Origin: Harmothoe impar
Lineage: Eukaryota > Annelida > Polychaeta > Phyllodocida > Polynoidae
Assembly: GCA_947462335.1 (NCBI GenBank)
Contig: OX381707.1
Coordinates: 81,864,610 to 81,928,609 of the forward strand
Length of the DNA stretch: 64,000 nucleotides
Reading direction: 5' to 3'
Numbering within the stretch: position 1 is the first letter of the stretch; each line of letters opens with the position of its first letter. Below the pieces are notes generated by a model. It did not search any database. It worked only from the letters and a program-made list of their open reading frames with translations, and was not told where the DNA came from. Shown here piece after piece: positions 1-40,306 of this stretch. Both the position numbers and the translations under genes were made by a program.

Positions 1-1
1 T

Positions 2-781: not shown

Positions 782-804
782 GGTAGCCCCAGCCCAACTT
801 TAAG

Positions 805-4504: not shown

Positions 4505-4535
<31 letters not shown>

Positions 4536-4536
<1 letters not shown>

Positions 4537-4655
4537 CCAATGAGGTCCATCCGAGGCGCGGTTATTGCTAGTTGAAAACTATACCCAATACCCCGCGGTG
4601 TCGTCCTGAAATATGGATCGGCACACGCAATTTCTGACATCTCCTAAGGGAGATG
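4536..4655 (+). pseudogene. U4 snRNA 3' fragment (nt 26-145), split by copy A
   Basis: It begins GCCAATGAGG directly after the poly(A) tail and runs to the terminal hairpin. The first 25 nt are missing, being upstream of the retrotransposon and outside the window. Confidence 0.92.
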
Positions 4656-5078
4656 ACAATTAAACAAAGATAACACTTTCTCTTCTCCCTATGCTCAACA
4701 GTGTTGGTCCCCCCACCACCCCACAATGTGTTGATTCCGCCATTTCGTTTCGTGATGTCACATTGTCAAATACAGACCACTCTCAATTGACAATTTAAGC
4801 CAATAAAGTGGGTGCAACCACTGACATAAGCAGTTGTCAGTAGTGCCAGACCTTGCCACTAGGTGCCTCCACCTACTCCCACTCTCCCCTTTAAACCAAC
4901 CTCTGCCACTCCAAAATGCCACAAACGAATAGTTGCTGGAAACCCTACAGAATATAACACATTCAATAATGTGTAACAATATTTCTGCCTCCACTTTGAC
5001 TCAACATTTCACCCATTAGGTGCCAACAAGAAACGTTTTAGGTGACATGATTAACTCTGCCGGTGCTAGGACACCTTT

Positions 5079-5097
5079 CCCCTGTAATTTGACTAAG
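5079..5097 (+). promoter_or_regulatory. PSE-like element upstream of U4 (representative copy)
   Basis: CCCCTGTAATTTGACTAAG lies at about -50 to -32 relative to the U4 start. Its core GTAATTTGA resembles the vertebrate snRNA proximal sequence element (a GTAACTTGA-type core). A TATAT run follows at about -30. Every intact unit has the same sequence at the same distance. It lies slightly closer to the start than the usual -55, so the assignment is tentative. This would be the promoter used by RNA polymerase II with SNAPc. Confidence 0.5.
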
Positions 5098-5128
5098 CAT
5101 ATATCAAGCCAGTTCACCTTCGCTCGGT

Positions 5129-5273
5129 AGCTTTGCGCAGTGGCAATACCGTAGCCAATGAGGTCCATCCGAGGCGCGGTTATTGCTAGTTGAAAACTAT
5201 ACCCAATACCCCGCGGTGTCGTCCTGAAATATGGATCGGCACACGCAATTTCTGACATCTCCTAAGGGAGATG
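5129..5273 (+). ncRNA. RNU4: U4 spliceosomal snRNA, block A copy 1
   Basis: The 145-nt sequence starts AGCTTTGCGCAGTGGCA and matches animal U4 nearly base for base through its first 70 nt. The U6-pairing stem II (CTTTGCGCAG) and stem I (TGCTAGT, one G-U with standard U6) are present. The 15.5K k-turn strands are CCAATGAGG and CCGAGGC. The central hairpin is rebuilt with different but pairing bases around loop TGAAATAT. An Sm-like site AATTTCTGA precedes a perfect 7-bp 3' hairpin, CATCTCC-TAAG-GGAGATG. U4 carries U6 into the tri-snRNP and is released on spliceosome activation. The preserved folding suggests a functional gene. The 3' end is set by analogy and may vary by a few bases. Confidence 0.94.
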
Positions 5274-5290
5274 ACAATTAAACAAAGATA
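5274..5290 (+). promoter_or_regulatory. 3'-box-like sequence after U4 (representative copy)
   Basis: ACAATTAAACAAAGATA follows U4 immediately in every unit. AAACAAAGA resembles the purine-rich half of metazoan snRNA 3' boxes, which direct Integrator cleavage. Blocks A and C both end at this point (6523, 40306). Confidence 0.4.
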
Positions 5291-5746
5291 ACACTTTCTC
5301 TTCTCCCTATGCTCAACAGTGTTGGTCCCCCCACCACCCCACAATGTGTTGATTCCGCCATTTCGTTTCGTGATGTCACATTGTCAAATACAGACCACTC
5401 TCAATTGACAATTTAAGCCAATAAAGTGGGTGCAACCACTGACATAAGCAGTTGTCAGTAGTGCCAGACCTTGCCACTAGGTGCCTCCACCTACTCCCAC
5501 TCTCCCCTTTAAACCAACCTCTGCCACTCCAAAATGCCACAAACGAATAGTTGCTGGAAACCCTACAGAATATAACACATTCAATAATGTGTAACAATAT
5601 TTCTGCCTCCACTTTGACTCAACATTTCACCCATTAGGTGCCAACAAGAAACGTTTTAGGTGACATGATTAACTCTGCCGGTGCTAGGACACCTTTCCCC
5701 TGTAATTTGACTAAGCATATATCAAGCCAGTTCACCTTCGCTCGGT

Positions 5747-5891
5747 AGCTTTGCGCAGTGGCAATACCGTAGCCAATGAGGTCCATCCGAGGCGCGGTTA
5801 TTGCTAGTTGAAAACTATACCCAATACCCCGCGGTGTCGTCCTGAAATATGGATCGGCACACGCAATTTCTGACATCTCCTAAGGGAGATG
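5747..5891 (+). ncRNA. RNU4: U4 snRNA, block A copy 2
   Basis: Intact; same sequence as copy 1, with T at nt 102. Confidence 0.92.
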
Positions 5892-6364
5892 ACAATTAAA
5901 CAAAGATAACACTTTCTCTTCTCCCTATGCTCAACAGTGTTGGTCCCCCCACCACCCCACAATGTGTTGATTCCGCCATTTCGTTTCGTGATGTCACATT
6001 GTCAAATACAGACCACTCTCAATTGACAATTTAAGCCAATAAAGTGGGTGCAACCACTGACATAAGCAGTTGTCAGTAGTGCCAGACCTTGCCACTAGGT
6101 GCCTCCACCTACTCCCACTCTCCCCTTTAAACCAACCTCTGCCACTCCAAAATGCCACAAACGAATAGTTGCTGGAAACCCTACAGAATATAACACATTC
6201 AATAATGTGTAACAATATTTCTGCCTCCACTTTGACTCAACATTTCACCCATTAGGTGCCAACAAGAAACGTTTTAGGTGACATGATTAACTCTGCCGGT
6301 GCTAGGACACCTTTCCCCTGTAATTTGACTAAGCATATATCAAGCCAGTTCACCTTCGCTCGGT

Positions 6365-6509
6365 AGCTTTGCGCAGTGGCAATACCGTAGCCAATGAGGT
6401 CCATCCGAGGCGCGGTTATTGCTAGTTGAAAACTATACCCAATACCCCGCGGTGTCGTCCTGAAATATGGATCGGCACACGCAATTTCTGACATCTCCTA
6501 AGGGAGATG
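6365..6509 (+). ncRNA. RNU4: U4 snRNA, block A copy 3 (array edge)
   Basis: Intact, T at nt 102. It is the last copy of the block; homology to the array ends 14 bp after the gene. Confidence 0.92.
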
Positions 6510-6523
6510 ACAATTAAACAAAG

Positions 6524-9310
6524 CAAACATGATAAAGTTCATTATTATTGTCATGATGCAGGTTGAAGATGCAATGTAAATTGTAGGTGACATTTGTATA
6601 GTAGCATTCCCAAAGTATTTTGTTTATGTTATCAGAGTATGTGAATAGGTAATTTTTAACTTTCATGCATGTATTTCATGTACCAAAGCTTCAGGGAGTA
6701 TATACTATTGCCATGCAGAATACGAGGCCAGCACGGCACGTCTCCAATAATCCTATATGGGGTGTGTGTGAGAAGGAAGTAGATGTATCTGTATTATAGC
6801 TCACCCTCATCCGTCTGCTAACTCCTAATACATTTTCACATTACGTGTGCAAGTTTCTTTCTTCAATGAAAATTAGACTATTTTGATGTAAGAGTAATGC
6901 AATTCAAGTACCCTCATCCACTCATCATCCCTGTATCCAGTCGGACTGGTCAGATCCGTTCTCCTCCTCACCGCCCGAACCAGTTTACTACACGGCACTG
7001 TGCTCTCACTCTTAGCGCACAAACTTAACATGGAATAATAATTAGTCATTAAGGCTGAATGAACCGCGAGGTAGTAGCAACTTCCAAAAAGGTCGGATCC
7101 AGGTTGGCGGGGAACGGTGAAGAGAGTCGTGACAGTCAGTCATATCCCTGGGACTGCCCCTCACATCGCACGCTGCTTCGCGACTATACATGTATATTCT
7201 GTGGACGTCAGGTCCACACATGGGGAAAAGTGCAAATATTTATCTTGGCTTCTGATGCAACTTTAAAGTAATGTATGCTTACTGTTGTTGAGAGAAGTCT
7301 GTTCAGTTCATTGATGCCAGAGGAGTTAAATCCAAACCAAACGGACCAAAGCGAAGCAGGGCGATAGAGGGGCGGTCTCGTCATAACACATCTACCTCCT
7401 GAGCTTTTGTAGTGCTCGTCTTATTGAGAATCGTGTGGGTTACGTGGATGCAGTCAGATCACAGCGTGAATGTGGTTTTACTAGTAAATTTGCCATTTCT
7501 TACAATGATTATTGCCGTTGTTGATTTACTTCCCGTTTGGGGGGAGCCGCATCCAGTAGTGGACGTGCTGCGGGATCAGACGGTGGCACACGGCGGCAGG
7601 GTGGTGCGCTTTTTCTCCTTCCCCGACTGCTACCTTTCATTTGTAAGTGTCAACTGTCGAGGTGTCAACTGTCATCACACGTGACCTTTTGACTATTACA
7701 CAGCGGCGAGTCGTCTTGTCGGCTTTACCGACACGTCGACGCCCGCTTTCTAACGTCACTCCGGTGTTTGTCTGCATGCCGTATTGTCTATAAAAGAGGG
7801 CATGGCCACTGCACACCAATCCCCCAATCAAGTGCCCGTATATATAGCTTTTTCCTACATAGCTACTTTTGTAGAGCGGCGTGAAGCCCCGAAACGCACT
7901 TCAACAGACACAAACTTGATTCGGAGGCTTGCGCTAGAGTAAATCAGTGTGGAAGTTTTTAGATAAATGGGTCGTTCCTTCCAGATTGACTATTGTGACT
8001 CCTGTTTTCTCGCAGCATGACATCAGTTTTCCTTTTCATTGTCATTATATAACATTCCTAGGTAATTGTCAAATGTTTGTGCTTAACTAAAATGTACTAA
8101 ACTTGTGATATTATTGTTTCTCCCCTTTCCTTGAATGACAAATAAAGGCTCTTGCTGTCCAGCCTTGCCGTGTGCCCTCTGGGAACGTCCTTGAGTTTTG
8201 TCTGTCTGTATGTCCATCCTCCCGTCCTGCCGAGGCAGGGCCGCTGGGGGAGGGGCGTGTGTCGCAGTGTGCCGCACCAATCCAGCTTGTCTGTTATCAA
8301 CCCGTGTAGAACCAAGAGGCGCTACCAATAAACTCTTGTAGCTTTTCAGCACACTGGTGTTTGTTTACCACTTATTGAATTACTCACATAGACTTAGATG
8401 AAAGCTAAAAAAAAATAAGACAGAAGTAGAACAAACAGATTTATATCGATAACTGTTGCATTATTATGATTCATGTTGCATTACAGTAAAACATAATAAC
8501 AAAATAACAAAATTCCATTCATAAGGAACACATTTAGATCTATAATTTAACATGGATGCATCAAATCTATAATACAACAGATTTATCATGCTGGTACCAA
8601 CGAGTTTATTATAACCAGGTTTTATCATTGCTTGGAATGTTTGATACATTAAACAAAACAGTATACTGTAGGGATAAAAATGTTGCATTTACCCTGTCCA
8701 ATGACACACACAAAAAACTTAATAAGAGCCAACCAATGATAGATCCAGTGCCATACTCATTGCAAATGTCTATTCTTGTCAAACACATTTATCATCAGCT
8801 GCCTTGCCCTGCAGGGCCTGCTGGTAATACATCATTCATTAAGTCATCTGATAAAAACCATGACATATGGTACTCTGTATTTGTTATAAATGCATCCTGT
8901 CACTCGTACCAATAATTTAACACACCAGGAATTGTGAACAATGATCACAAAGACTATCTTATTGCAATACTACAAAACTGGCTTTACCACAAATAGTTCC
9001 CCACAATAATGAGGGCAATATACTACAGAATAATATATTACTTAAGTTAATGCATTGTGACTTGATAGAATACAGTAGGAAGTAATATAAGCTTAAGGAT
9101 GGAGAGCACAGACACAGTGAGAAGACAGTGGCTGGCGGTCTACCTGACGGAGCGTTTCACCTGAAGCTGATGCACATTATGCTGCACCATCCTGCCCCCT
9201 ACTGGAGCTGAACAGAAGCTTGTCCTGCCACGGCCTTTAATACACAAGGTGTCATGGTACTAATAGCCAAACAGTCCCCACTAAAAATGGACTTCTAGTG
9301 GATATAATCA
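6524..9310. other. Intergenic, no gene recognised
   Basis: Low-complexity and unique-looking DNA. Short open frames (for example 7059-7271 and 7412-7684) have no recognisable domains or coding bias. The only structured part is the promoter/LTR-like segment near 7650-8380. Confidence 0.5.
7789..7796 (+). promoter_or_regulatory. TATA box-like site in a possible LTR/promoter segment
   Basis: TATAAAAG is followed 340-550 bp downstream by poly(A)-signal-like AAATAAAG (about 8142) and CAATAAAC (about 8328). That spacing suits a retroelement LTR. The end segment TTTTCAGCACACTGGTGT (about 8342-8360) recurs inverted at about 10553-10573 behind another AATAAG-like motif. I could not fix TG/CA ends or a target duplication. 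Confidence 0.3.
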
Positions 9311-9622
9311 GGCCAAAAAAAAAAAAGTTGTGTTCAGGTAACATGGCCCAAAAAAAAAAGGGTAGGTAGGTCGATTTTTTTTTTTTTTTACCAAATTTTT
9401 TTAAGGATTTTGAGACAAAATTCCTCCCATTTTCATATAATGTTCAGAAAAAATATATGATTTTCGGAAAAAATATATTTCAGTTAAAAAAAAGTGTTTT
9501 TTGGTAGAAAAAACACAAAAATGCCTTCCAAAAAAAAAAAAAAAAAAAAAAATTGGGTAGGGCCAACAAAATAGGGTCGCTAGGCCTAGGGATACCTGAA
9601 CACAACTTTTTTTTTTTTGGCC
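9311..9622. mobile_element. MITE with 30-bp TIRs and TCA target duplication
   Basis: The ends read GGCC, twelve A, GTTGTGTTCAGGTA and the exact reverse complement. TCA flanks both sides (9308-9310, 9623-9625). The interior is poly(A)/poly(T) rich with no coding capacity. Confidence 0.75.
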
Positions 9623-11250
9623 TCAGTGCTAGGAGACCTTGTTTTTGACTGGGAGTAATAATAGGCATACCAGAAGATGGGCAATGCTTGGTTTAAAAAA
9701 ACGTTTTAAAAAGTTTGTGGTATCCATGGTAACCAAGGGGTCATGCTTGGAGGTCAAACTCAAGGTCACAGGTCGGTGGGGCACTTGAAAAATTGATCAT
9801 GTTTAGACTGCTTTTTCCATGGCAATTACCGCAAAATCTGATTTGACTCCGATATTGACTGACATTTTAAATAGGCCTAAGCTTTTTGTTATTAAGGCGT
9901 CATCTATGCAGGCCATCAAATATTGAACCACATTTGGAGCCACTTGAAAGTGAAAAAGAGGAAAATATTAGAGCATTACTGTGCCAATTAGTACAGTGAC
10001 AGCACAACATTGAATTGGTTACTTTTTTTAGTCTACCAGCAGCTCCGCTGCCGGCGATAGTGGCGCGGGAAATTCGTGCAGACAGCGTTTGTCTGATTTA
10101 GTACACTGCACTCTGGGAATGCCTCAGCCTCTGTAGTGTTGTGAAAAATCATTCTCCTAGCAGATGTTTGGTCTCTTGTTTTCTACAGTTGAAGACAGAG
10201 TGAGCAGACGAAATGCATTCTTGGGTACGCTCCCGATTTCCCTGTTGTTGTTTAATAAGAAGCACTGAATTGGGTGGGCTTGGGTCAATAATCGCTTTGA
10301 TTCAATGGTCGCAACCTTGACTTCATGACAATCTATGTGATATCATGCATCTGAATAGGCCCTAGGCCTAGTTTCATATGATTACTGTTCCTGGTCATAA
10401 ATCTTGAACGTCCATATTCTTATCTTACTGATATAGAGTCTGAGACCCGGGAACAAATAAAACAATTGTGATTTTCTAATGAAGTTACTCACTTAGGCCT
10501 ACTGTAGGCCTAATGAATAGACAAAGACGGTAGGCCTAATAATAAGAACACACACCAGTGTGCTGAAAACCCGGGGCTTATTAAAGTTCAAGTTCAAGTT
10601 CACAATTTTTTATATTTTTTCCTAGAGTAGCGTAGATCTACATCAACTAATACAGCTGGTCTCCCTGCATAACCACTCTAGGGAGGAGAGTGTAAAGATA
10701 GGCCTATGACCTTTATCTATATTGTCGCACTGTCATGAACATGAATAGGATAATATTATTTCTTTACACTCATCTTAAAAGCTACAAGCGTTTATTGATT
10801 TGATAGCACCTCTTCGTTCTACACAGTGATTGACTTAGATCTACACGTTCAAAGTAAGTTTCTTTTTGCAACAAATGCAAACGGTTTTGTCCACTAGGCC
10901 TACAGCCACATTAGAATAGCCTACATGCGATTCAAGTGAATTAAAAGAGTGCCCGGGCAAAAAGCCGGGGTAAGGTCAAAAGACAAAGCGGCGCCTGGCC
11001 GACGACGTAGTTGAGGCATACCTAGATCCCGGACCTAGATCTACAAGTACCCGGAAAAGCTGCATTATTAACACACATAGTCTAGTTTATAGGCCTAATT
11101 ATTATATTAAAACACCTACCTGCTCATGTCAGTCATGATTATCAGGCATCATTGACAATCCCGTACAAAAACATTCCTGTTAACATCTTGAGATATCGTT
11201 TAATAGCCGTAACGGGAATTCTGCACTGAAGTCGTCCGAAAAGCAATCGT
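9623..11250. other. Intergenic, no gene recognised
   Basis: A-T rich DNA with scattered TAGGCCTA-type motifs. No conserved ORF, tRNA or clear repeat apart from the inverted LTR-end-like match near 10553-10573. Confidence 0.5.
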
Positions 11251-11252
11251 TG

Positions 11253-11390
11253 TGACGTCACGAGACGTTGTGACGTCACGGAACGTTGTGACGTCACAGG
11301 GGCGGATTTCGTGACGCACTTCTAAGAGAGTCAGACTGCAGCATCTCCATGACAACAGCTATTTATGAGTGCACGTCATGGTTGACGTCA
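11253..11390. promoter_or_regulatory. Cluster of four palindromic TGACGTCA (CRE-type) sites
   Basis: TGACGTCA occurs at 11253-11260, 11271-11278 and 11289-11296, an exact 18-bp period inside a GTTGTGACGTCACG repeat, and again at 11383-11390. This is the CREB/ATF full site. No gene start is recognised beside it, so it may be an enhancer, a small minisatellite or a remnant element. Confidence 0.45.
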
Positions 11391-11486
11391 CTACATTTAG
11401 TTACCTCCTTATTTACTTTCGGTCGGCGATCGCCTGGCACATGGTGATCTCTGCAGTTGTCAAAGTCAAATATTTTCCCACCATAA

Positions 11487-11655
11487 AGCCCAAAATCCAC
11501 GGCGGCAGAAAGCTGCGTTAAAATGGTTTCGCGGCCCTGCCGCGCCGATTTCGCCCCTGTAACGCCGTGGACTTTGGCGGCACAGCCGCGAAAAAGGCGC
11601 GACAGGGCCGCGAAACCATTTTAACGCAGCTTCCTGCCGCCGTGGATTTTGGGCT
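11487..11655. mobile_element. MITE, about 60-bp TIRs, TAA target duplication
   Basis: It starts AGCCCAAAATCCACGGCGGC and ends with the reverse complement; the arms continue with very few mismatches through a TTTCGCGGCCCTG segment. TAA flanks both ends (11484-11486, 11656-11658). A 3-bp TWA duplication is the habit of PIF/Harbinger elements; the family call is inference. Confidence 0.75.
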
Positions 11656-12176
11656 TAACTGTCTTCTTATAAATTGATTTCTCATCTTCCTTCATGCTGA
11701 GCACTTCACTTTCTACTTTCTAATATTCTCTGTGAATATTGCAATGGAGGTATAACATTATCTCAGCATATAAACTACTTTTATTTCATAACATCCATCA
11801 TGCAAACATCCACGAAACGGTATGTAACACAGCACGGCCATCTGCGTAGGTAGGCCTGCCTAGGTCATAAAGACGCCCGTACCTCGGCAGCAAAGTTCCC
11901 GCGCCCAAACTGGGGCGACAGTGGTGTATAACGTTCAGTATCCCGGCGACGAAGTCGCTGGTTATAACTAACGAGGGATGTTAAATCATAAAAGTATAGT
12001 AGCATTGCTTCCCTATAGTTTCATGGTTAAATCAATGGTACTTCATAGAAGTATTACCGGTAGTACGGTAGGCCTGCCGCCTAGGCTACGGACCCGGGCC
12101 TACGCCACGGAGCGGTGACAGTGCCGGAAGTGCACTACTATCCACTACTAGGCCCTAGACCATTGTTGCTGAAAGT

Positions 12177-12853
12177 ATGGGGGGGGGGGGGGTGGACCCC
12201 TAAAATCGACAGGGCGACATAGCTGTTTCTTAAATAAAATCATGGTGACATGGGGCTTAGTGACAAACGACAGGAGAAATTAAAAGATAGTGACAAGGGA
12301 CATGGGCATTTCTTAAAAATCGACAGGGGACATGGCCCGGGAGGGCCACTCCCTATCTTTTCTATAGTCACTATGTGCGAACATCACCCTTAAATTGGTA
12401 CCCTTATCAAGGGGCGAAACTTTTAAAAAGCATACCCTTTTCAAGGTAAACTTACCAGAAAAACGGACCCTAATCATGAATGACCCTGAAAAATATACCC
12501 TAATCACAGGGTGACCCTGAGAAAATATCTGAATCAAGGGTGCCCAAGAAATATTGTAGAAAAATAAAGTAAAAAATACCTTTTAAAAAGCCATGAGGGT
12601 CTGAAAATGTACCCCTTTCTCCCCAAATTTGCTTAAAAAGCACCGCTTATCAAGGACCCTCGCGGGTCCGTGCCTAGGGCCCAAAAAGATACCCTTTCCC
12701 TTGGAATTGTGTTCACACATAGTCATTAATACTGAAGGAGTGGCCCTCCCGGGGGACATGGGCATTTCTTAAAATCGACAGGAGGAATAGAAAGATAGTG
12801 ACAAGGGACATGAGCATTTATTAAGGCGACATGGGGACCCCCCCCCCCCCCAT
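12177..12853. repeat. GACATGG-rich repeat, interrupted by a nested MITE
   Basis: The outer parts (12177-12338 and 12751-12853) have degenerate GACATGG/AAATCGACAGGG repeats bounded by long poly(G) and poly(C) runs. An inverted relative lies at 14050-14245 and a third copy at about 51700-52110. The nested insert splits GGGGACATGG from its continuation. Confidence 0.55.
12339..12750. mobile_element. MITE nested in the GACATGG repeat
   Basis: Terminal inverted repeats start GGGAGGGCCACTCC and extend imperfectly to a CTATGTG-GAACA segment. The interior has degenerate 27-30-bp repeats of ACCCTAATCA...TGACCCTGA. No ORF of note. Confidence 0.6.
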
Positions 12854-12939
12854 CTAGATCTCCAAAGTAGGGGGTTTAAATAGCCCAGAGCCTTTAGCGA
12901 GCCCACTGAGGATCACTGACCATGTAGATCTAAACTGTA

Positions 12940-13865: not shown

Positions 13866-14049
13866 TACGATTCCAACGAGCCTAATATCAAGTCTTTAGT
13901 CCAGTTATTGGTGGATATAGGTCCGTTTAAAGGTCTAAAATGTGGCCAAATTTGGGAAGATACCAGCAATGCCATTATTAGGAATCAATCATCAAATGAG
14001 ATTTTTGTACGGTACAATCATACTGTAGCTTACTGTAGTGATGGGGGTA

Positions 14050-14245
14050 TAGATGGGGGGGTCCCCATGTCGCATGTCGATTTTATCAAATAGCCATGTC
14101 GCATGTCAATGTCGCTTATTAATCCCCATGTCCCTTGTCGATTTTAAGAATTACTCATGTCCCCTGTCACTATCTTTTCAAACCTCATGTCGCATGTCAC
14201 TAAGCTCCATGTCGCCATGTCGAATTTAGCCATCTACCCCCATAG
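14050..14245. repeat. GACATGG-rich repeat, inverted copy
   Basis: On the minus strand it matches the 12177-12338 segment closely, including the GGAGCTTAGTGACAT, AAAAGATAGTGACA and TTCTTAAAATCGACA stretches. Confidence 0.55.
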
Positions 14246-14257
14246 AGATTTCTCTGC

Positions 14258-14487: not shown

Positions 14488-14497
14488 TAGGGTAAGG

Positions 14498-14824: not shown

Positions 14825-15147
14825 TCTAAGTAGGGGTAAAACACCGGTGGTCAAAATTGGACCAGCTCCTAAATTGGACCATCCTTGTTTCCCTTTACGG
14901 TAAATGTGTGCAATATCACGCATGTGGTAATATCACACACACACCGTAAAAGGCACATTTTTCAACAACAAAATAATAATCTTTCAGTCAGCCACATTAT
15001 ATCTCTGGGACTGCAGGCATGCATGGAAGGGGGGAGGGATGAAGGGAGCCCCAGTGTCAAGCATAGATGCAGAGAGAGGGTTTCTCGGGGTACATCTAAC
15101 ATGGCTGAAAGGAGGGTTTAATATACTGGTGGCCGTGGCTCCAAAAA

Positions 15148-15338
15148 CAGACCGCTCTCAATTGACAATTTAAGCCAATAAAGTGGGTGCAACCACTGAC
15201 ATAAGTAGTTGTCAGTAGTGCCAGACCTTGCCACTAGGTGCCTCCACCTACTCCCACTCTCCCCTTTAAACCAACCACTGCTGCTCCAACATGCCACAAA
15301 CGAATAGTTGCTGGAAACCCTACAGAATATAACACATT
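15148..15338 (+). repeat. Partial U4-array unit at the upstream edge of block B (spacer/promoter part only)
   Basis: It matches the U4 unit from CAGACC...CTCTCAATTG to AACACATT with several substitutions, more than any other unit, as expected for an unhomogenised array edge. It stops 164 bp before a U4 gene would start and joins copy B of the retrotransposon. Confidence 0.85.
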
Positions 15339-15342
15339 ACAC

Positions 15343-17964
15343 TAGTTACTTTCTGCGTAGGGAAGTGACTAGGGGGAGAGATAAAGTTATCCAAAGTTTA
15401 GTTGTTGACAATGTCCCTATTGAGGGTCAGGAGGAGATTCAAGACGCCTGTAGAGAGTTCTACAAAGGTCTTTTTTCCTCTGAACCTATAGATTTAGATG
15501 TTGTTGATGAATTCACTTCTAACCTACCTTTTCTAGCAGTGGAGGACAAGCTTTATTGCGAAGGCCCCCTTACAGCTGCCGAGTGTCTCGAGGCCCTGAA
15601 GGGTATGAAGGATGGCAAGACTCCGGGCATAGATGGTTTGCCAAAGGAGTTCTATGTCCATTTTTTCCCCCTTTTTGGTAAAGATTTTGTACAAATCATG
15701 AACAATGCCTTTGACCAAGGTTTACTATGTCCATCCCAGAGAAAAGGGGTTGTAACTTTGATCTGTAAAGACCCCAACAGAAAGGAACTCCTTACCTGTT
15801 GGAGACCTATTACTCTTTTGACAGTGGATTATAAGATAATTTCTAAATCCTTAACTAATAGACTTTCTAAAGTCATTTCCTCCTTGGTTGGACAGGAGCG
15901 GACCTGCGCAGTTCCAGGAAGGTCTATAACAGATCATCTGCACCTAATTCGATCGCTTTTTGACTACGTCCAGATGAAGGATGTCCCATGTGGCATCCTG
16001 AGTCTGGATCAAGCCAAGGCTTTCGACCGAGTGTCGCACCAGTATATGTTTCTGTGCTTACAAAAATATGGTTTTGGTCCAGATTTTATATCCTGGGTCA
16101 AACTATTATATAATGATATTGTCTCATCTGTACAGGTGAATGGATTCCTGTCTGAACCGTTTAAGGTGGACAGGTCAGTCCGACAGGGATGTGGTCTTTC
16201 CCCTTTGCTATATGTCCTATGTATTGAACCTCTAACCAGGATGCTTTGTCTATCCCCCCATATACAGGGAGCAAACGTCCCAGGGTTCGAGGGCGAACTA
16301 AAGGTTATCCAGTATGCGGATGACACCTCTATTATCATCCGGAACGAGGCTTCGGTACGGACCGTTCTGGACATTTCTAATAAATTCAGAAAAGCCTCTG
16401 GGGCTAAACTAAACAAGGAAAAATGTAAAGGAATGTGGTTTGGGAGGTGGGCTTCCAAACGTAATTATGTCTTTGGGATGAATTTTACTTATGATAGTTT
16501 GAAAATGTTGGGGGTTTATTTCTCCAGAAATGTAGAAGAATTGTCTAATATAAACTGGAACCCAATCACAGTAAAATTTGAGAATGTACTCGATTATTGG
16601 TTATGTAGAAAGACCTCTTTTAGAGGTAGAGCCCTTCTGGCCAATATTTTTGCCTGTTCTAAGCTGTGGTATGTCGGGAAGGTTCTACAGCTAGACAGGA
16701 AGCATCTGAAAATGTTTGATTCAAGAATGTATACTTTCATATGGAAAGGTCAAGATCGAGTAAGGAGAACGGTGATGGTCTCCGACCTTATGGAAGGAGG
16801 CCAGAAAGTTGTCCATATTCCAACTAAATTGAAAGCCTTTCGCATTATGCATGTTATTGATCTTCTTTACAAAGATGTCCAGAACTACTGGACCTATTTT
16901 GCTGTTTACTTCATAGGGTTCCATTTAAGGAAGTGGAAAGAGGAGCTGGGGAGGAATTCAATTCCTCACTGCGACTCTATTCCCCCCTTTTATAGGGAAT
17001 GCCTAACAGACTTTAAGAGTTTCTGTGAGGACAATCCAGAGATAGATTTAAAGATAATGTCTTCCAAAAAGGTTTATTCTATATTGTTACCCGATGTACA
17101 AGAGAAGGCGCAAGTTTCTCTAAAACATGAAAATGCTCATTTAGATTTCCAGCTGGTATGGAAGAATACCTTCCACCCCTTTTTGTGCCCCCTTTTAAAG
17201 GACTTCAACTGGAGGGTGTGTCATAGTATTCTGCCAGTAAGGAGTCTTTTGCATAAGCAGAACGTTTTTACAACACCCACAGAAAAATGTCCCCTCTGTG
17301 AAACTGGAGTAGAGGATATTTTCCATCTGTTTTTAATATGTCCCTTCACAAAGCCTGTTCTGGCAATCATAGAAAACATTATAAAGGACATGACAGGTTC
17401 TACTATTATCCTAGACAGGAATGCCCTTTTTTTCAACTTGCTCCCAAAAGAGTGTAGCAAGTTTATCCCCCTTTGTCTGTTAATTATATCTTTGTTTAAA
17501 CATAATGTTTGGACTATTAGATGTAAAGTCGAAAAAGAGAGAAAAGTTTTCAATTCTAATAGTTTACTAGAAATGTTGTTAGCAGACCTGAAGTTTAGGT
17601 TTCAGGTCGATCTTAAAAGATTAAAAAGCCCCCAGTTTAAAAAGATGTGGCTCTGTAACGGAGCTCTGTGTACCCTCTCCAACGAAAGCTGGAGCTTCAA
17701 CTACTGAATAAAAACCTGTATATACATAACCTGTACCATGTTTTTAGTTTACAGCAAGGGCCGGTTACCCGAAAGGGGCTGGAACCCGGAAACCATTGAA
17801 ACGATTGCCATGGGGAAGGGCAGTAGAGTGGCAGAGCTCCTCATTGCGAGGGCCTGAACCCGAAAATGATGAATGATTGTAAATAAAAATATAAATATGT
17901 TCGGGAAATGGGAAAGGAGGGGAAAAGAGGGACTAAGTCCCCAAAAAAAAAAAAAAAAAAAAAA
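15343..17964 (+). mobile_element. U4-targeted retrotransposon, copy B (5'-truncated)
   Basis: It carries the 3' 2.6 kb of the family: ORF2 from codon 368 on, the conserved 3' UTR and 22 A residues (17943-17964), then U4 nt 26. The 5' junction is not at the U4 target base but in the spacer 190 bp upstream, with about four extra bases (15339-15342). This indicates a truncated insertion with an upstream target deletion, or a later deletion. It is more diverged than copies A and C. Confidence 0.9.
15344..17707 (+). pseudogene. Retrotransposon ORF2, 5'-truncated (RT to C-terminus, copy B)
   Basis: It encodes the equivalent of residues 368-1154 of copy A: the whole RT with SLDQAKAFD and YADD, and the C-terminal CCHC (CPLCETGVEDIFHLFLIC). 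It lacks the endonuclease. The frame is still open, but there is no native start, only spacer sequence fused in frame upstream. Substitutions such as HGIL to HSIL and KQDVLTTRTDK to KQNVFTTPTEK mark it as an older or distinct lineage. Confidence 0.9.
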
Positions 17965-18084
17965 GCCAATGAGGTCCATCCGAGGCGCGGTTATTGCTAG
18001 TTGAAAACTATACCCAATACCCCGCGGTGTCGTCCTGAAATATGGATCGGCACACGCAATTTCTGACATCTCCTAAGGGAGATG
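17965..18084 (+). pseudogene. U4 snRNA 3' fragment (nt 26-145) after copy B
   Basis: Starts GCCAATGAGG directly at the poly(A) end, the same base as after copies A and C. Confidence 0.92.
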
Positions 18085-18558
18085 ACAATTAAACAAAGAT
18101 AACACTTTCTCTTCTCCCTATGCTCAACAGTGTTGGTCCCCCCACCACCCTTCAATGTGTTGATTTCCGCCATTTTGTTTCGTGATGTCACACTGTCAAA
18201 TACAGACCACTCTCAATTGACAATTTAAGCCAATAAAGTGGGTGCAACCACTGACATAAGCAGTTGTCAGTAGTGCCAGACCTTGCCACTAGGTGCCTCC
18301 ACCTACTCCCACTCTCCCCTTTAAACCAACCTCTGCCACTCCAAAATGCCACAAACGAATAGTTGCTGGAAACCCTACAGAATATAACACATTCAATAAT
18401 GTGTAACAATATTTCTGCCTCCACTTTGACTCAACATTTCACCCATTAGGTGCCAACAAGAAACGTTTTAGGTGACATGATTAACTCTGCCGGTGCTAGG
18501 ACACCTTTCCCCTGTAATTTGACTAAGCATATATCAAGCCAGTTCACCTTCGCTCGGT

Positions 18559-18703
18559 AGCTTTGCGCAGTGGCAATACCGTAGCCAATGAGGTCCATCC
18601 GAGGCGCGGTTATTGCTAGTTGAAAACTATACCCAATACCCCGCGGTGTCGTCCTGAAATATGGATCGGCACACGCAATTTCTGACATCTCCTAAGGGAG
18701 ATG
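18559..18703 (+). ncRNA. RNU4: U4 snRNA, block B intact copy
   Basis: Complete, identical in type to block A copies (T at nt 102), with its own PSE-like and 3'-box-like sequences. Confidence 0.92.
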
Positions 18704-19177
18704 ACAATTAAACAAAGATAACACTTTCTCTTCTCCCTATGCTCAACAGTGTTGGTCCCCCCACCACCCTTCAATGTGTTGATTTCCGCCATTTTGTTTC
18801 GTGATGTCACACTGTCAAATACAGACCACTCTCAATTGACAATTTAAGCCAATAAAGTGGGTGCAACCACTGACATAAGCAGTTGTCAGTAGTGCCAGAC
18901 CTTGCCACTAGGTGCCTCCACCTACTCCCACTCTCCCCTTTAAACCAACCTCTGCCACTCCAAAATGCCACAAACGAATAGTTGCTGGAAACCCTACAGA
19001 ATATAACACATTCAATAATGTGTAACAATATTTCTGCCTCCACTTTGACTCAACATTTCACCCATTAGGTGCCAACAAGAAACGTTTTAGGTGACATGAT
19101 TAACTCTGCCGGTGCTAGGACACCTTTCCCCTGTAATTTGACTAAGCATATATCAAGCCAGTTCACCTTCGCTCGGT

Positions 19178-19206
19178 AGCTTTGCGCAGTGGCAATACCG
19201 TAGCCA
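19178..19206 (+). pseudogene. U4 snRNA 5' fragment (nt 1-29), split by copy C
   Basis: AGCTTTGCGC...CCGTAGCCA is followed directly by retrotransposon 5' UTR. With 24694-24813 it makes one U4 gene interrupted by a 5.5-kb insertion. Confidence 0.92.
19203..19206 (+). repeat. Target-site duplication GCCA (left copy)
   Basis: GCCA ends the U4 5' fragment and also begins the U4 3' fragment after the poly(A) tail (24694-24697). A 4-bp duplication is the simplest reading. GCCA could instead be element sequence with blunt insertion. Confidence 0.7.
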
Positions 19207-19214
19207 CTGCCACT

Positions 19215-19370
19215 CCTTAAGCACACTTGTAGCGTCTCTTGCACGCTGCCACTGTGTTGTATTAAGGACAGCAACGGATGCTGTACGGTCATCCTTAAGC
19301 ACACTTTCAGTGTCTCTTGCACACTGCCACTGTGTTTCATTAAGGACAGTGCCGGATGTCTTCCGAGACT
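19215..19370 (+). repeat. Two 78-bp tandem repeats in the 5' UTR of copy C
   Basis: CCTTAAGCACACTT starts at 19215 and again at 19293. Both repeats run through CACTGTGTT and ATTAAGGACAG to CGGATG. The second overlaps the ORF1 start codon region. Tandem 5' UTR monomers often act as promoter units in L1-like elements. Confidence 0.8.
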
Positions 19371-20933
19371 CCGGGCCAGGGACCAGGAGGGCCGGTGTCC
19401 ACGCAGGACGGCCTCCTGGACTCCCAGGACCAACTGATCACGCCCGGTCAGCGGACGCCGGAGACTGGGTCCGATGACGAAGGAGGGTTCACGCTCGTCG
19501 CGGACCGGAAGGGAAGGAGGCGAAACTCATCCCCGACCCCATCACTGCAGGACGCGCAGCGATTTCTCGTGACGCAGGAGACGCAGGAGACGCAGGAAAC
19601 GGAGAAGACGCCGGAGGCACCGCCCGCCAAGCTGCACACCATCCCCGCCCCCGACTTCGTCGCCGAGGTTGAGAAGGAGAGTGGAGCCGCGGCTCCAAAA
19701 GGTGCAATGGGTAGCCCCAATGTGGAGCTGGTTTTTGTGACTCTAGCAATTGAAACTGAATTTAACCTTTTCGATCGAAGCGAAATTGTAAAAGCACTGT
19801 CTGATGTAATCAATTTTTCTCAAGTCAGAGCCATTGTACGTATGGCCAAAGAATGGCAAATAACATTCAAAAGTACCGAAGAATTCGAAAAGTGTTTGGC
19901 ATTGAAAAAGATTGTCTTGAAGGAGCAGAGCTACACCCTCCGCCGGTTCGCCGAGAAGAACCACAAAGGGGAATTTCGGTTTGTTCGGGCCACCAAAATG
20001 GCCCGACTCCACAATTTCCCTGCGTGGATTCCGGAGAACTGGATAAGGAGAAACATTTTTAGGAATGTAGAGGTAGTAGACTTCATTTATGAGTCCGCAG
20101 GGTCAGACACGGCATTGACCGGCACCATCCGTGCAAAGTGTAAAGGGGATGTTGACAAATTGCCATATAAGTTAGACTTTACGTATGAAGGGGATCGCTT
20201 TTCTACCAACATCACCGTTCCAGGCAGGGCCCCTGTTTGCTGGAGGTGCCATGAGCAAGGGCACGTGAAGAGCGAATGTCCGAGAAGTAAGAGGGGAGAG
20301 GGGCCAAAAACAGGGTGGGGAGCTCTTTTCCAGACCCCGGACGATCGAAGGCAGGTAGCCATGGACAACGAGGAGGCGGAGAGGAAACGAGCGGAACGAA
20401 GGACGACGGAGACCAAGACCCCCGAGGCAACTAAGGCGGTCATGGAGGCGAGGAAACCTGAAGTGAGCAAGAAGGAGGGAACATCGAAACTGGCCTCGGC
20501 AGCAGCAGGTGCTCAGGTGTCTGGGGGAAATTACGGAAATAAGGGGAGTGATAAGGGGAACAGAAATGTGGCAAGGGAGAGAGTACAGATAAGGGATCCA
20601 GTAGAAAAGGAAGTAGAGCAAGATTCAGGCAAAGGGCGAGGCTTTTTCACAAAAGCATCTAATTGGCTAAACAATCGGGCAGGGAAAGGGGAGGGCGAGA
20701 AGAAGGATGGGAAGGAGGGGGGAGGTGCAGGGGTGGGAGAGGGAGGAGGGTCGGGGGAAGGGAGAGGGGGAGTAACGGGACACGGGGAGGAGTCTATGGA
20801 GGTAGAGGAGAACAACCAGAAACGGAAATCTGTATATTCCCATATTCCAGCGGCGGCCATGCCGTCGCCGCTGTCAGAAATAAAGAAGGCCAAACTGGCG
20901 AGTCAAGCCAGGCAGGGTACCAGTGCTACATAA
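19356..20933 (+). CDS. Retrotransposon ORF1: CCHC nucleic-acid-binding protein (copy C)
   Basis: The 525-aa protein probably binds element RNA in the retrotransposition RNP. Residues 1-110 are polar and Pro/Thr/Glu-rich with a QET triplet repeat near 74-84. Residues about 120-205 (ELVFVTLAIETEF...KEWQITFKSTEEFEKCL) have the alternating strand-helix look of an RRM-like fold; this is judged by eye. A zinc knuckle C-x2-C-x4-H-x4-C lies at 295-308. A Lys/Glu-rich linker, a Gly/Glu-rich stretch (about 443-480) and KRK/KKAK basic patches follow. The start is the first ATG after the 5' UTR repeats. It ends 20 bp before ORF2, in another frame. Confidence 0.9.
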   Translation: MSSETPGQGPGGPVSTQDGLLDSQDQLITPGQRTPETGSDDEGGFTLVADRKGRRRNSSPTPSLQDAQRFLVTQETQETQETEKTPEAPPAKLHTIPAPDFVAEVEKESGAAAPKGAMGSPNVELVFVTLAIETEFNLFDRSEIVKALSDVINFSQVRAIVRMAKEWQITFKSTEEFEKCLALKKIVLKEQSYTLRRFAEKNHKGEFRFVRATKMARLHNFPAWIPENWIRRNIFRNVEVVDFIYESAGSDTALTGTIRAKCKGDVDKLPYKLDFTYEGDRFSTNITVPGRAPVCWRCHEQGHVKSECPRSKRGEGPKTGWGALFQTPDDRRQVAMDNEEAERKRAERRTTETKTPEATKAVMEARKPEVSKKEGTSKLASAAAGAQVSGGNYGNKGSDKGNRNVARERVQIRDPVEKEVEQDSGKGRGFFTKASNWLNNRAGKGEGEKKDGKEGGGAGVGEGGGSGEGRGGVTGHGEESMEVEENNQKRKSVYSHIPAAAMPSPLSEIKKAKLASQARQGTSAT

Positions 20934-20953
20934 GGTAGCCCCAGCCCAACTTT

Positions 20954-23900
20954 ATGATGACCGTAAAGGTAGCCACACTGAACGTGAGAGGGCTGAGAAA
21001 CCCCAAAAAGGTCTCGGTCCTGTCGTATTTTATTTTGCATCACTGCATTAATGTGCTTTTTCTCCAGGAGACGTACCTGGTTTCCGACGAGGAGGCCAAG
21101 GGTATAGCAGACACCCTTGGGGCCCAGGCTTTCTGGAGTCATGGGAATAACTCCAGTCGGGGTGTTGGTATTTTGATTAGTAAGTCCCTCCAGTTTCAGA
21201 TGGGTACATGGTACTCGGACGAAGCCGGAAGAGTCATTGCAGTAAATGTAAAAATAGCAGACGTTCCGTTTAGTTTCATTAATGTTTATGCCCCAAATGA
21301 TATTTTAGACAGGAGGGCACTTTTTGCCTTCCTCCCTAATTTTTTGGTTGGTAATAAAAACATAATATTAGGTGGTGATTTTAATTGCATAGAAAATCCC
21401 ACTTTGGATAAAGCGGGAGGTTCTATGCGAAAAGGTCATTTTGGTTCTAAAGAGTTGGGTGATCTGAGAAGGGATTTCCACTTGGAAGATATTTATCGCT
21501 CCAAATTCCCTCTTGGCCAAGAGTACACTTGGAATAATAGTAATGGTGTTTACTGTAGATTGGATAGATTTTACAGCAACTCTGACTTTTTACAGTTTAT
21601 ATCCAGAATTTCCACTTACCACTGTTCATTTTCAGATCATAATATGGTTGTTGCAGAAGTCCGGGGCTACGAGCCAAAGCTCGTAGGGCCGGGCTTCTGG
21701 AAATGTAATACATCCATACTCGAAAATCCAGGGTTAGTAAAGGATATAAGGAAATTATGGGGCTTTCTATCCGGATCAGATCGGAAGGATCTTGACTGGT
21801 GGGAGTCTTGTAAAGTTTCCTTTAAAAATGTCATCATAAAACACTCTAAATTGATAGCACGCAGGAAACGTGAAGATGTTAGTCTCGTTGAGGCTGAACT
21901 AAGAATATTACGTGCATGTGAGATGCAGTCACCTGGGGAGTTTAGCCAGGAGATACTATGTAATGAGAGGGCTCTGGCTAAACTCCTCGAAGAGAAGGTT
22001 GAGGGAGCTCGCCTAAGAGCAAAAATAGATCATATAGATCTGGATGAGAAGCCCAGTAGTTACTTTCTGAGTAAGGAAGTGACTAGGGGGAAAGATAAAG
22101 TTATCCAAAGTTTAGTTGTTGACAATGTCCCTATTGAGGGTCAGGAGGAGATTCAAGACGCTTGTAGAGAGTTCTACAAGGGTCTTTTTTCCTCTGAACC
22201 TATAGATTTAAATATTGTTGATGAATTCACCTCTAACCTACCTTTTCTAGCAGTGGAGGACAAGCTTTATTGCGAAGGCCCCCTTACAGCCGCCGACTGT
22301 CTCGAGGCCCTGAAGGGTATGAAGGATGGCAAGACTCCAGGCATAGATGGTTTGCCAAAGGAGTTCTATGTCCATTTTTTCCCCCTTTTTGGTAAAGATT
22401 TTGTACAAATCATGAACAATGCCTTCGACCAAGGTTTACTATGTCCATCCCAGAGAAAGGGGGTTGTAACTTTGATCTGTAAAGACCCCAACAGAAAGGT
22501 ACTCCTTACCTGTTGGAGACCTATTACTCTTTTGACAGTAGATTATAAGATAATATCTAAATCTTTAACTAATAGGCTTTCTAAAGTCATTTCCTCGGTG
22601 GTTGGACAGGAGCAGACCTGCGCAGTTCCAGGAAGGTCTATAACAGATCATCTGCACCTAATTCGATCCCTTTTTGACTATGTCCAGATGAAGGATGTCC
22701 CATGTGGCATCCTGAGTCTGGACCAAGCCAAGGCTTTCGACCGAGTGTCGCACCAGTATATGTTTCTGTGCTTACAAAAATATGGTTTTGGCCCAGATTT
22801 TATATCCTGGGTCAAATTACTATATAATGATATTGTTTCATCTATACAGGTGAATGGCTTCCTGTCTGAACCGTTTAAGGTGGACAGGTCAGTCCGACAG
22901 GGATGTGGTCTTTCCCCTTTGTTATATGTCCTATGTATTGAACCTCTCACCAGGATGCTTTGTCTATCCCCCCATATACAGGGAGCAAACGTCCCAGGGT
23001 TCGAGGGCGAACTAAAGGTTATCCAGTATGCGGATGACACCTCTATTATCATTCGGAACGAGGCTTCGGTGCGAGCCGTTCTGGATATTTCTAATAAATT
23101 CAGAAAAGCCTCTGGGGCTAAACTAAACAAGGAAAAATGTAAAGGAATGTGGTTTGGGAGGTGGGCTTCCAAACGTAACTATGTCTTTGGAATGAATTTT
23201 ACTTATGATAGTTTGAAAATGTTGGGGGTTTATTTCTCCAGAAATGTAGAAGAATTGTCTAATATAAACTGGAACCCAATCACAGTAAAATTTGAGAATG
23301 TACTCGATTATTGGTTATGTAGAAAGACCTCTTTTAGAGGTAGAGCCCTTCTGGCCAACATTTTTGCCTGTTCTAAGCTGTGGTATGTCGGAAAGGTTCT
23401 ACAGCTAGACAGGAAGCATCTGAAAATTTTTGATTCAAGAATGTATACTTTCATATGGAAAGGTCAAGATCGAGTAAGGAGAACGGTGATGGTCTCCGAC
23501 CTTATGGAAGGAGGCCAGAAAGTTGTCCATATTCCGACTAAATTGAAGGCTTTTCGCATTATGCATGTTATTGATCTTCTTTACAAAGATGTCCAGAACT
23601 ACTGGACCTATTTTGCTGTTTACTTCATCGGTTTTCATTTAAGGAAGTGGAAAGAGGAGCTGGGGAGGAATTCAATTCCTCACTGCGACTCTATTCCCCC
23701 CTTTTATAGGGAATGCCTAACAGACTTTAAGAGTTTCTGTGAGGACAATCCAGAGATAGATTTAAAGATAATGTCTTCCAAAAAGGTTTATTCTATATTG
23801 TTACCCGATGTACAAGAGAAGGCGCAAGTTTCTCTAAAACATGAAAATGCTCATTTAGATTTCCAGCTGGTATGGAAGAATACCTTCCACCCCTTTTTGT

Positions 23901-24421
23901 GCCCCCTTTTAAAGGACTTCAACTGGAGGGTGAGTCATGGTATTCTGCCAGTAAGGAGTCTTTTGCATAAGCAGGATGTTTTAACCACCCGCACAGATAA
24001 ATGTCCCCTCTGTGAAACTGGAGTAGAGGATATTTTTCATCTGTTTTTAATATGTCCCTTCACAAAGCCTGTTCTGGCAATCGTAGAAAACATTATAAAA
24101 GACATGACAGGTTCTACTGTTATTCTAGACAGGAATGCCCTTTTTTTCAACTTGCTCCCAAAAGAGTGTAGCAAGTTTATTCCCCTTTGTCTGTTAATTA
24201 TATCTTTGTTTAAACATAATGTTTGGACTATTAGATGTAAAGTCGAAAAAGAGAGAAAAGTTTTCAATTCTAATAGTTTACTAGAAATGTTGTTAGCAGA
24301 CCTGAAGTTTAGGTTTCAGGTCGATCTTAAAAGATTAAAAAGCCCCCAGTTTAAAAAGATGTGGCTCTGTAACGGAGCTCTGTGTACCCTCTCCAACGAA
24401 AGTTGGAGCTTCAACTACTGA
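20954..24421 (+). CDS. Retrotransposon ORF2: AP endonuclease-reverse transcriptase (copy C)
   Basis: This is the 1155-aa intact enzyme. It begins ATGATG; since copy A keeps only the second ATG, 20957 may be the ancestral start. The endonuclease motifs (Asn10, Glu39, Asp142/Asn144, Asp228/His229), the RT aspartates (590, 596; YADD at 692-695) and the C-terminal CCHC (1017, 1020, 1029, 1034) are all present. The endonuclease is the expected source of the U4 site specificity: all three copies enter between GTA and GCC of CCGTAGCCAATGAGG on the strand used for priming. An internal Asp replaces the Glu of copy A in the LTAADCLEAL segment. Confidence 0.95.
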   Translation: MMTVKVATLNVRGLRNPKKVSVLSYFILHHCINVLFLQETYLVSDEEAKGIADTLGAQAFWSHGNNSSRGVGILISKSLQFQMGTWYSDEAGRVIAVNVKIADVPFSFINVYAPNDILDRRALFAFLPNFLVGNKNIILGGDFNCIENPTLDKAGGSMRKGHFGSKELGDLRRDFHLEDIYRSKFPLGQEYTWNNSNGVYCRLDRFYSNSDFLQFISRISTYHCSFSDHNMVVAEVRGYEPKLVGPGFWKCNTSILENPGLVKDIRKLWGFLSGSDRKDLDWWESCKVSFKNVIIKHSKLIARRKREDVSLVEAELRILRACEMQSPGEFSQEILCNERALAKLLEEKVEGARLRAKIDHIDLDEKPSSYFLSKEVTRGKDKVIQSLVVDNVPIEGQEEIQDACREFYKGLFSSEPIDLNIVDEFTSNLPFLAVEDKLYCEGPLTAADCLEALKGMKDGKTPGIDGLPKEFYVHFFPLFGKDFVQIMNNAFDQGLLCPSQRKGVVTLICKDPNRKVLLTCWRPITLLTVDYKIISKSLTNRLSKVISSVVGQEQTCAVPGRSITDHLHLIRSLFDYVQMKDVPCGILSLDQAKAFDRVSHQYMFLCLQKYGFGPDFISWVKLLYNDIVSSIQVNGFLSEPFKVDRSVRQGCGLSPLLYVLCIEPLTRMLCLSPHIQGANVPGFEGELKVIQYADDTSIIIRNEASVRAVLDISNKFRKASGAKLNKEKCKGMWFGRWASKRNYVFGMNFTYDSLKMLGVYFSRNVEELSNINWNPITVKFENVLDYWLCRKTSFRGRALLANIFACSKLWYVGKVLQLDRKHLKIFDSRMYTFIWKGQDRVRRTVMVSDLMEGGQKVVHIPTKLKAFRIMHVIDLLYKDVQNYWTYFAVYFIGFHLRKWKEELGRNSIPHCDSIPPFYRECLTDFKSFCEDNPEIDLKIMSSKKVYSILLPDVQEKAQVSLKHENAHLDFQLVWKNTFHPFLCPLLKDFNWRVSHGILPVRSLLHKQDVLTTRTDKCPLCETGVEDIFHLFLICPFTKPVLAIVENIIKDMTGSTVILDRNALFFNLLPKECSKFIPLCLLIISLFKHNVWTIRCKVEKERKVFNSNSLLEMLLADLKFRFQVDLKRLKSPQFKKMWLCNGALCTLSNESWSFNY

Positions 24422-24654
24422 ATAAAACCTGTATATACATAACCTGTACCATGTTTTTAGTTTACAGCAAGGGCCGGTTACCCGAAAGGGGCTGGAACCC
24501 GGAAACCATTGAAAAGATTGCCATGGGGAAGGGCAGTAGAGTGGCAGAGCTCCTCATTGCGAGGGCCTGAACCCGAAAATGATGAATGATTGTAAATAAA
24601 AATATAAATATGTTTGGGAAATGGGAAAGGAGGGGAAAAGAGGGACTAAGTCCC

Positions 24655-24693
<39 letters not shown>

Positions 24694-24694
<1 letters not shown>

Positions 24695-24813
24695 CCAATG
24701 AGGTCCATCCGAGGCGCGGTTATTGCTAGTTGAAAACTATACCCAATACCCCGCGGTGTCGTCCTGAAATATGGATCGGCACACGCAATTTCTGACATCT
24801 CCTAAGGGAGATG
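24694..24813 (+). pseudogene. U4 snRNA 3' fragment (nt 26-145) after copy C
   Basis: 3' half of the gene whose 5' half is at 19178-19206. Confidence 0.92.
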
Positions 24814-40288: not shown

Positions 40289-40306
40289 ACAATTAAACAA
40301 AGATAA

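Follow-up and report, generated by a model that had tools for sequence, protein, structure and literature searches.

In the polychaete Harmothoe impar, whose genome measures 1.51 Gb, we analysed a stretch of 64,000 nucleotides (nt; the window, C4:81864610-81928609) in which a tandem array of U4 small nuclear RNA (snRNA) genes is interrupted by copies of a retrotransposon without long terminal repeats (LTRs). Our results suggest that these copies very probably belong to a lineage of long interspersed nuclear elements (LINEs) which resembles Keno and resides in snRNA genes, that the form found in U4 is a chimera carrying another cassette of open reading frame 1 (ORF1) and endonuclease, and that its RNA starts at a host promoter. 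The element in the U4 array is a non-LTR retrotransposon with an apurinic/apyrimidinic (AP) endonuclease and lies in sense orientation within U4. That it is a non-LTR retrotransposon was the view of the preliminary description of the window, and the whole is borne out by the domains of ORF2 (PF03372, the AP-type endonuclease; PF00078, the reverse transcriptase, RT; PF13966, zf-RVT), by the poly(A) ends and by the lack of LTRs, for which copy C was read through by eye and compared with itself by BLAST. The same domains, poly(A) and missing terminal repeats rule out an LTR retrotransposon or a DNA transposon.

Rfam assigns 29 intact U4 genes in the window, in units of 618 or 619 bp, together with three partial U4 matches across element junctions. 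Three copies of the element, one of them diverged, had been described as ending in poly(A) before U4 nt 26; all three are present (A, B and C; Table 1), and we found a fourth, the full-length copy D, left of the window (C4:81853516-81858990) with both junctions the same as in copy C. Directly after poly(A) runs of 31, 22 and 38 A, GCCAATGAGG begins at window positions 4536, 17965 and 24694, and the 3′ junction is poly(A)/U4 nt 26 in all four array copies (here and below a slash marks a junction). The 5′ junction of A, C and D is CCGTAGCCA/CTGCC, directly after U4 nt 29, which in C is window position 19205/19206; that of A, read from genome sequence left of the window, is identical to that of C. 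In the C4 block a script counted three such 5′ junctions, four such 3′ junctions and 36 uninterrupted U4 starts. Copy B is the diverged copy (97.45% to C), with a U4 spacer fragment upstream where U4 nt 1-29 would stand; its linker stretch matches copy C at 146 of 152 nt and the U1-type elements described below at 118 of 152, and it is therefore of the U4 type. U4 nt 26-29 adjoin the conserved kink-turn of the 5′ stem-loop.

The flanks and substitutions of these copies argue for more than one insertion event into U4. In its 5′ flank, copy D shares 95.6% identity with A and with C, and the elements themselves differ by 0.7-1.2%. Copy A has 5′ and 3′ flanks identical to each other across 616 bp (618-type units) and copy C has flanks that are 99.7% identical (619-type units), which agrees with each having inserted inside one unit type. 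In a DNA tree of ORF2 from 15 copies, A, C and D share one branch and B lies on a different one. Synonymous changes make up 18 of the 29 differences between A and C in ORF1 (neutral mean 6.9), 23 of 31 between D and C in ORF2 (9.3) and 44 of 65 between B and C in ORF2 (18.8), values reached in 0 of 2000 simulations in each comparison. Because the substitutions are mostly synonymous, the U4 copies are taken to have diverged mostly while functional, under purifying selection. Some are nevertheless not intact, since A and D carry one stop-creating substitution each, with one stop in ORF2 of D. Copy A is near C in ORF2 yet not in ORF1, and D is near C in ORF1 yet not in ORF2, which indicates that A, C and D are mosaics. 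Flanks and mostly synonymous differences together argue against all array copies being duplicates of one dead insertion. The preliminary description had named duplication of one insertion as an outcome that would undo its claim; this does not hold for the copies as a set, although A and C by themselves could still be such duplicates. In our judgement, chance comes nowhere near explaining at least two independent insertions at a single nucleotide of a 1.5-Gb genome.

Most relatives of the element were found in another snRNA gene. When the genome was searched in six frames for ORF2, 40 of 8885 candidates were scored, 4 of them in the C4 array and 36 elsewhere; the copy numbers obtained are therefore minima and favour long, close copies. 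The 3′ flanks of 34 of the 36 copies outside the array were read (left out were one flank of N and C15:53758687). By BLAST against a U1 gene of the same genome, 29 of these 34 flanks lie in U1 genes, 26 of them at U1 nt 33/34 (L031 was assigned by eye, its BLAST match beginning later). In L051 and L056, also inserted in U1, poly(A) joins U1 deeper than nt 34, and these junctions were probably displaced by deletions. Rfam, run on six of the 29, assigned U1 at the gathering score in L028, L040 and L042 but not in L030, L031 and L034, in which the U1 sequence is cut or has diverged. Four copies lie in other sequence (L025, L026, L027 and L029), L025 and L026 probably being one event duplicated; L026 was placed in the U4-type clade by a 97% match, not by the tree. 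A more distant relative (L043, 55%) ends in poly(A)/GTATCTGTTCTTATCAGC, with the flank GTATCTG, where Rfam assigns U2.

Insertion into U4 thus recurs but is not exclusive, and the U4-specific family proposed in the preliminary description, if taken as a self-contained one with all or nearly all copies in U4, had to be given up, with 29 of 34 other flanks in U1 and the U4-type clade itself also present in U1 and elsewhere. It is literally true of the wider family that most copies lie outside U4, the finding which the description had said would count against it; these copies are mostly in U1, and in our judgement this alters the account to a greater degree than it undermines it. The sites compare as ...ATCTA/TGCGGC in U1, ...ACCGTA/GCCAAT in U4, ...CACTA/GACCACC at the off-target copy L027 and ...TGTA/GTATCTG in U2, where the letters 5′ of the slash come from an excerpt of PMC4640811 and not from this genome. 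TA precedes the junction in four of six contexts, the exceptions being L025 and the copy at U1 nt 37; this pattern is post hoc, and its A may belong to the poly(A).

Comparison of elements from the two targets shows that the U1 and U4 types are chimeric relative to each other. Between copy C and a U1-type copy at C10:52 Mb, identity is 97.3% in the 5′ untranslated region (UTR; 146/150 nt), 58.2% of aligned positions in ORF1, 73.0% in endonuclease plus linker and 96.5% from RT to 3′ UTR, and a U1-type copy on C21 shows the same pattern against C. At the protein level the two types are 78% identical in the endonuclease, 68.5% in the linker, 97% in the RT and 96-98% in later parts, with steps in identity near element nt 150-200 and near ORF2 residue 400-430. 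Differences in rate alone are unlikely to have produced such a step at the DNA level, which means that either one module was exchanged or the remainder was homogenised. The distant relative P0001 gives no decision on which part was exchanged, since it is about equidistant from the U1 and U4 types (endonuclease 64 and 67%, linker 66 and 62%, RT 78 and 78%). P0121, the one ORF1 homologue among 7990 candidates scored, is 59% identical to the U1-type piece over 157 aa and 33% to the U4-type over 533 aa; given alignments so unequal in extent, this hints only weakly at the U4-type ORF1 as the deviating one. The U4-type endonuclease and linker also occur in L065, L066 and L067, at 96.6-97.9% to C.

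The 5′ ends bear on where the RNA starts. In all ten full-length U1 copies that could be read, U1 nt 51 is followed by the start of the element, TTTTTT(C/T)(G/A)GTAGCCAT, then TGCC; uncounted were L064, which lies shortly upstream of the gene, and the copy at U1 nt 37 (L062), in which no element 5′ end was seen. The own 5′ end of the element, as seen in U1 copies, is TTTTTTCGGTAGCCA, and it shares the 7-nt GTAGCCA with U4 nt 23-29; the U4 copies lack TTTTTTCG ahead of GTAGCCA. The U4 5′ junction therefore falls within an identity of element and target, and GCCA belongs to both. As U4 nt 25 is A, the duplication measures 4 (GCCA) or 5 (AGCCA) nt. Of the GCCA duplication at U4 nt 29 in the preliminary description, the junction itself stands for A, C and D, but the duplicated letters overlap the end of the element, and could reflect a join made at shared sequence just as they could reflect staggered cutting. 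The 3′ junction is for this site more telling than the 5′ junction. The GTAGCCA match may have eased entry into U4 for a U1 element; equally, it may date from former residence in U4.

In U1 genes the inserted element has U1 nt 34-51 on both sides, and the paired 18-nt stretches are identical in 2 of 10 pairs, with 1 to 5 differences in the other 8. On the 5′ side, TGCGGCACTTCTCCCAGG is the form shared by 4 of 10 U1 copies and by the head of an off-target copy, but it occurs in 0 of 10 matching 3′ flanks, which suggests that the 5′ stretch may arrive with the RNA and not from the target; it could also be a plain target duplication that diverged later. The off-target copy on C14 (L061/L027) has GACCACCATCAC on both flanks, and between this duplication and the element it carries U1 nt 5-51 followed by TTTTTTCGGTAGCCACTGCC, nt 3-4 being indistinguishable from the flank. 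Most simply, its RNA would have been read from a U1 gene with a copy inside it, beginning at the start of that gene or close to it. By the same token we infer that the U4 copies are transcribed from the U4 promoter; 29 nt of U4 in the RNA would give the cDNA perfect homology to the next target, and this would explain three identical U4 5′ junctions. In another U1 copy, L076, the U1 part upstream of the element contains a small local repeat (TATGCGGCATATGCGGCA).

We therefore picture a two-ORF AP-endonuclease element that resides in snRNA genes, belongs to a lineage resembling Keno and close to the Tx1 group, and would move by target-primed reverse transcription. Its main family in this genome would prime at U1 nt 33/34. 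The chimeric form, which agrees with the U1 family in its 5′ UTR, RT, C-terminus and 3′ UTR and departs from it in ORF1, endonuclease and linker, would prime at U4 before nt 26. The RNA would start at the host snRNA promoter and have at its head ~50 nt (U1) or 29 nt (U4) from the beginning of the gene, and this snRNA homology would shape the uniform 5′ junctions. Concerning how the two types came about, we tentatively propose a target switch by module exchange, in which a U1-resident LINE swapped its ORF1, endonuclease and linker, kept its RNA ends and RT, gained the U4 target and is now copied from the U4 promoter; in that order of events the cassette would be what sets the target.

The same chimera would be predicted if no cassette had been exchanged and if U1 and U4 families, long separate, had recently been homogenised in the 5′ UTR and from RT to 3′ UTR by gene conversion or template switching, the two accounts differing in which part is old. 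We hold this to be possible, though short of probable. In its favour, either direction of exchange would fit, with P0001 about equidistant from both types in every domain, and A, C and D are themselves mosaics; against it, two conversion tracts are needed where cassette exchange needs one double crossover. In a variant of this account, the TTTTTTCGGTAGCCA end of the U1 copies would be a relic of former life in U4. A further explanation, which we consider rather unlikely, is that the U4 copies go back to rare misfires by an element that targets U1 and whose endonuclease has no preference for U4, and that they were brought in through the GTAGCCA match and then spread in the array by homology. 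The TTTTTTCGGTAGCCA end in U1 copies does match U4 nt 23-29, and U4-type elements occur in U1 and elsewhere too, but the 3′ priming junction, which is set by the first nick and not by the 5′ end, is at the same base in all four copies including B, the 5′ end of the truncated B is not in U4 at all, and the ORF1-endonuclease cassette is unlike that of the U1 type.

We regard it as very improbable that a single U4 insertion was copied along with its repeat unit through unequal crossing-over, without any site specificity. Such multiplication would be in keeping with every known U4 copy lying in one array, with ORF2 of A and C being 6 substitutions apart, and with flanking units between which 619 bp show 2 to 4 mismatches and one gap. 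It sits poorly with the 5′ flank of D, which is 4.4% off A and C against no more than 0.7 to 1.2% between the elements, with the separate branch of B in the ORF2 DNA tree, and with a strong excess of synonymous differences in three of five comparisons, the pattern of lineages kept working; the lengths of poly(A) also vary, though such runs change quickly.

Several observations weigh against recurrent U4 targeting by a chimeric element. All U4 insertions known here belong to one array, and at six other loci, ten U4 genes whose nt 1-36 are the same as in the array have no copy within ~4.5 kb on each side. The remaining two comparisons have too few changes to add much (A and C in ORF2, 4 of 6 synonymous, P 0.03; D and C in ORF1, 2 of 4, P 0.28). 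In the U4-type clade, the copies with a flank read number 4 in U4, 1 in U1 (L028, at nt 37) and 4, probably 3 events, elsewhere. L066 is the U1-headed copy, yet has the U4-type cassette, and L067, with the same cassette, is the one in U1 at nt 37; cassette and target therefore do not map one to one, and the cassette alone did not exclude life in U1. The U1 copies are in part non-independent, several lying a few kb apart and looking like duplicates, and 29 is not a count of events.

Among known elements, Tx1L of Xenopus laevis (YTX2_XENLA) matches ORF2 with 30% identity over 910 aa and 397 bits by BLASTP; the score of 229 against L1 comes from a different program, phmmer. Tx1L has the same two-ORF plan as the element described here, and its target is another transposon. 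The 5S rRNA gene element Mutsu and the U2 gene element Keno belong to the Tx1 clade. A protein tree of 41 rows rooted on L1 (the query, 30 of 120 proteins of one listing, 9 of 120 of another, and L1, chosen by hand) joins ORF2 to P0001 with support 99, outside the Tx1L subgroup. The 40 other rows separate from the single L1 row, a separation built in by the choice of outgroup, and the long L1 branch makes a weak root. Target-specific insertion in multicopy sequence, a trait of the Tx1 group, was seen at U4 nt 26 in 4 of 4 copies and in U1 in 29 of 34. The Tx1 relationship suggested earlier holds in that the element is Tx1-like, but falls short of establishing membership of the clade. In solved structures, the top sequence matches of the ORF2-bearing element are LINE-1 ORF2.

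The most similar system by habitat is Keno, an AP-type endonuclease LINE in U2 genes, as stated in passages of PMC4640811; in contrast, the elements described here occupy U4 and U1 and only the 55% relative is in U2, and the likeness was drawn from the target and from this U2-inserted relative as a proxy. Utopia, likewise a non-LTR element, also inserts into an snRNA gene, U2, at a precise 3′ site, but has a restriction-like endonuclease; according to the same passages, Utopia and Keno share identical 3′ flanking U2 sequences, and TGTAGTATCTG is among the sequences resembling the Utopia target in U2 (PMC4640811). Dada-U1 and Dada-U6 target U1 or U6 genes (excerpts of PMC4640811; for Dada in general, of PMC3706591), but they are DNA transposons with a DDE transposase and without reverse transcription. 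Mutsu is a target-specific retrotransposon in a small-RNA gene as well, differing in its 5S rRNA target (excerpt of PMC3706591). The excerpted text of PMC4640811 gives Keno, Utopia, Dada-U1 and Dada-U6 as the only transposons of snRNA genes reported by 2015, and the novelty of the U1 site for LINEs is taken solely from that statement. Literature searches on U4 with retrotransposons or transposable elements, judged by title and start of abstract, returned no U4-inserting family that we recognised, in agreement with the preliminary description, whose author knew of none.

The larger finding is the U1 family and the chimeric relation of the U1 and U4 types. One genome has members of a LINE lineage in U1, U2 and U4, and near-identical RT halves joined to divergent endonuclease halves at two targets amount to a natural experiment on LINE target choice, the determination of which is relevant to site-specific gene insertion. 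The U1-headed off-target copy, for its part, appears to record that the RNA of such an element can begin in a host snRNA gene.

The features of the window are collected in Table 1, with copy C as the complete copy. AlphaFold models of ORF1 (two sequences) had a mean pLDDT of 36, and a faint beta-alpha-beta pattern at 125-200 was not relied on. Folds of the 5′ and 3′ UTRs (four in all) were near shuffled controls, with z from -1.9 to +0.4.

Table 1. Positions of the element copies and of the U4 array in the window
Feature	Position	Strand	Remarks	Source
Copy A	1..4535	+	full-length; 5′ end left of window (~C4:81863672); 31 A, then U4 nt 26	
Copy A ORF2	805..4269	+	1154 aa; endonuclease, RT, zf-RVT	
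U4 3′ part, 3′ of copy A	4536..4652	+	from nt 26	Rfam
Left array block	5129..6529	+	3 intact U4 genes, 618-bp units	
U4 spacer fragment	15142..15338	+	diverged, 96.4%, 197 bp; immediately 5′ of copy B	
Copy B	15340..17964	+	5′-truncated inside ORF2; 22 A, then U4 nt 26	
U4 3′ part, 3′ of copy B	17965..18081	+		Rfam
U4 nt 1-29	19177..19205	+	5′ piece of gene split by copy C	
Copy C	19206..24693	+	complete element	
Copy C 5′ UTR	19206..19355	+	two ~78-bp tandem repeats	
Copy C ORF1	19356..20933	+	525 aa; one CCHC knuckle (CWRCHEQGHVKSEC); in the cassette differing from the U1 type	
Copy C ORF2	20954..24421	+	1155 aa; AP-type endonuclease 7-229, RT 519-759, zf-RVT 963-1038	Pfam
Copy C 3′ UTR	24422..24693	+	234 bp, ending GGGACTAAGTCCCC, then 38 A	
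U4 3′ part, 3′ of copy C	24694..24810	+	from nt 26	Rfam
Right array block	25288..40319	+	25 intact U4 genes, 619-bp units	

No relative of the element and no U4 junction was found in viral contigs. Six remote loci in bacterial metagenome-assembled genomes, for which blastn gave two weak matches (L003 and L004), are probably contamination and were not used. The off-target copies L025, L027, L060 and L061, on C1 and C14, have a common target, TATCAGTTCACTAGACCACCATCAC/TGGTTGTGATGCC, upstream of which lies a motif, GACACCTTTTCTGTGA, that resembles one upstream of the U4 genes in the array. Rfam made no assignment for the off-target sequence of L025 and L027, apart from one match at chance level; the sequence is possibly another snRNA-like gene.

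At the left edge of the right array block (15142-15338) the diverged spacer fragment is fused straight to the truncated copy B, as if the U4 5′ half had been removed by the insertion or by a subsequent deletion. The right ends of both U4 array blocks (6529 and 40319) lie slightly beyond the U4 3′ end. Further right, large imperfect inverted repeats (83-97%) at 41286-41624, 45187-45567 and 60142-60883 are likely of foldback or miniature inverted-repeat transposable element (MITE) type, and an inverted pair of segments, 50287-50630 and 59098-59489, lies 8.5-8.8 kb apart with 85-99% complementarity.

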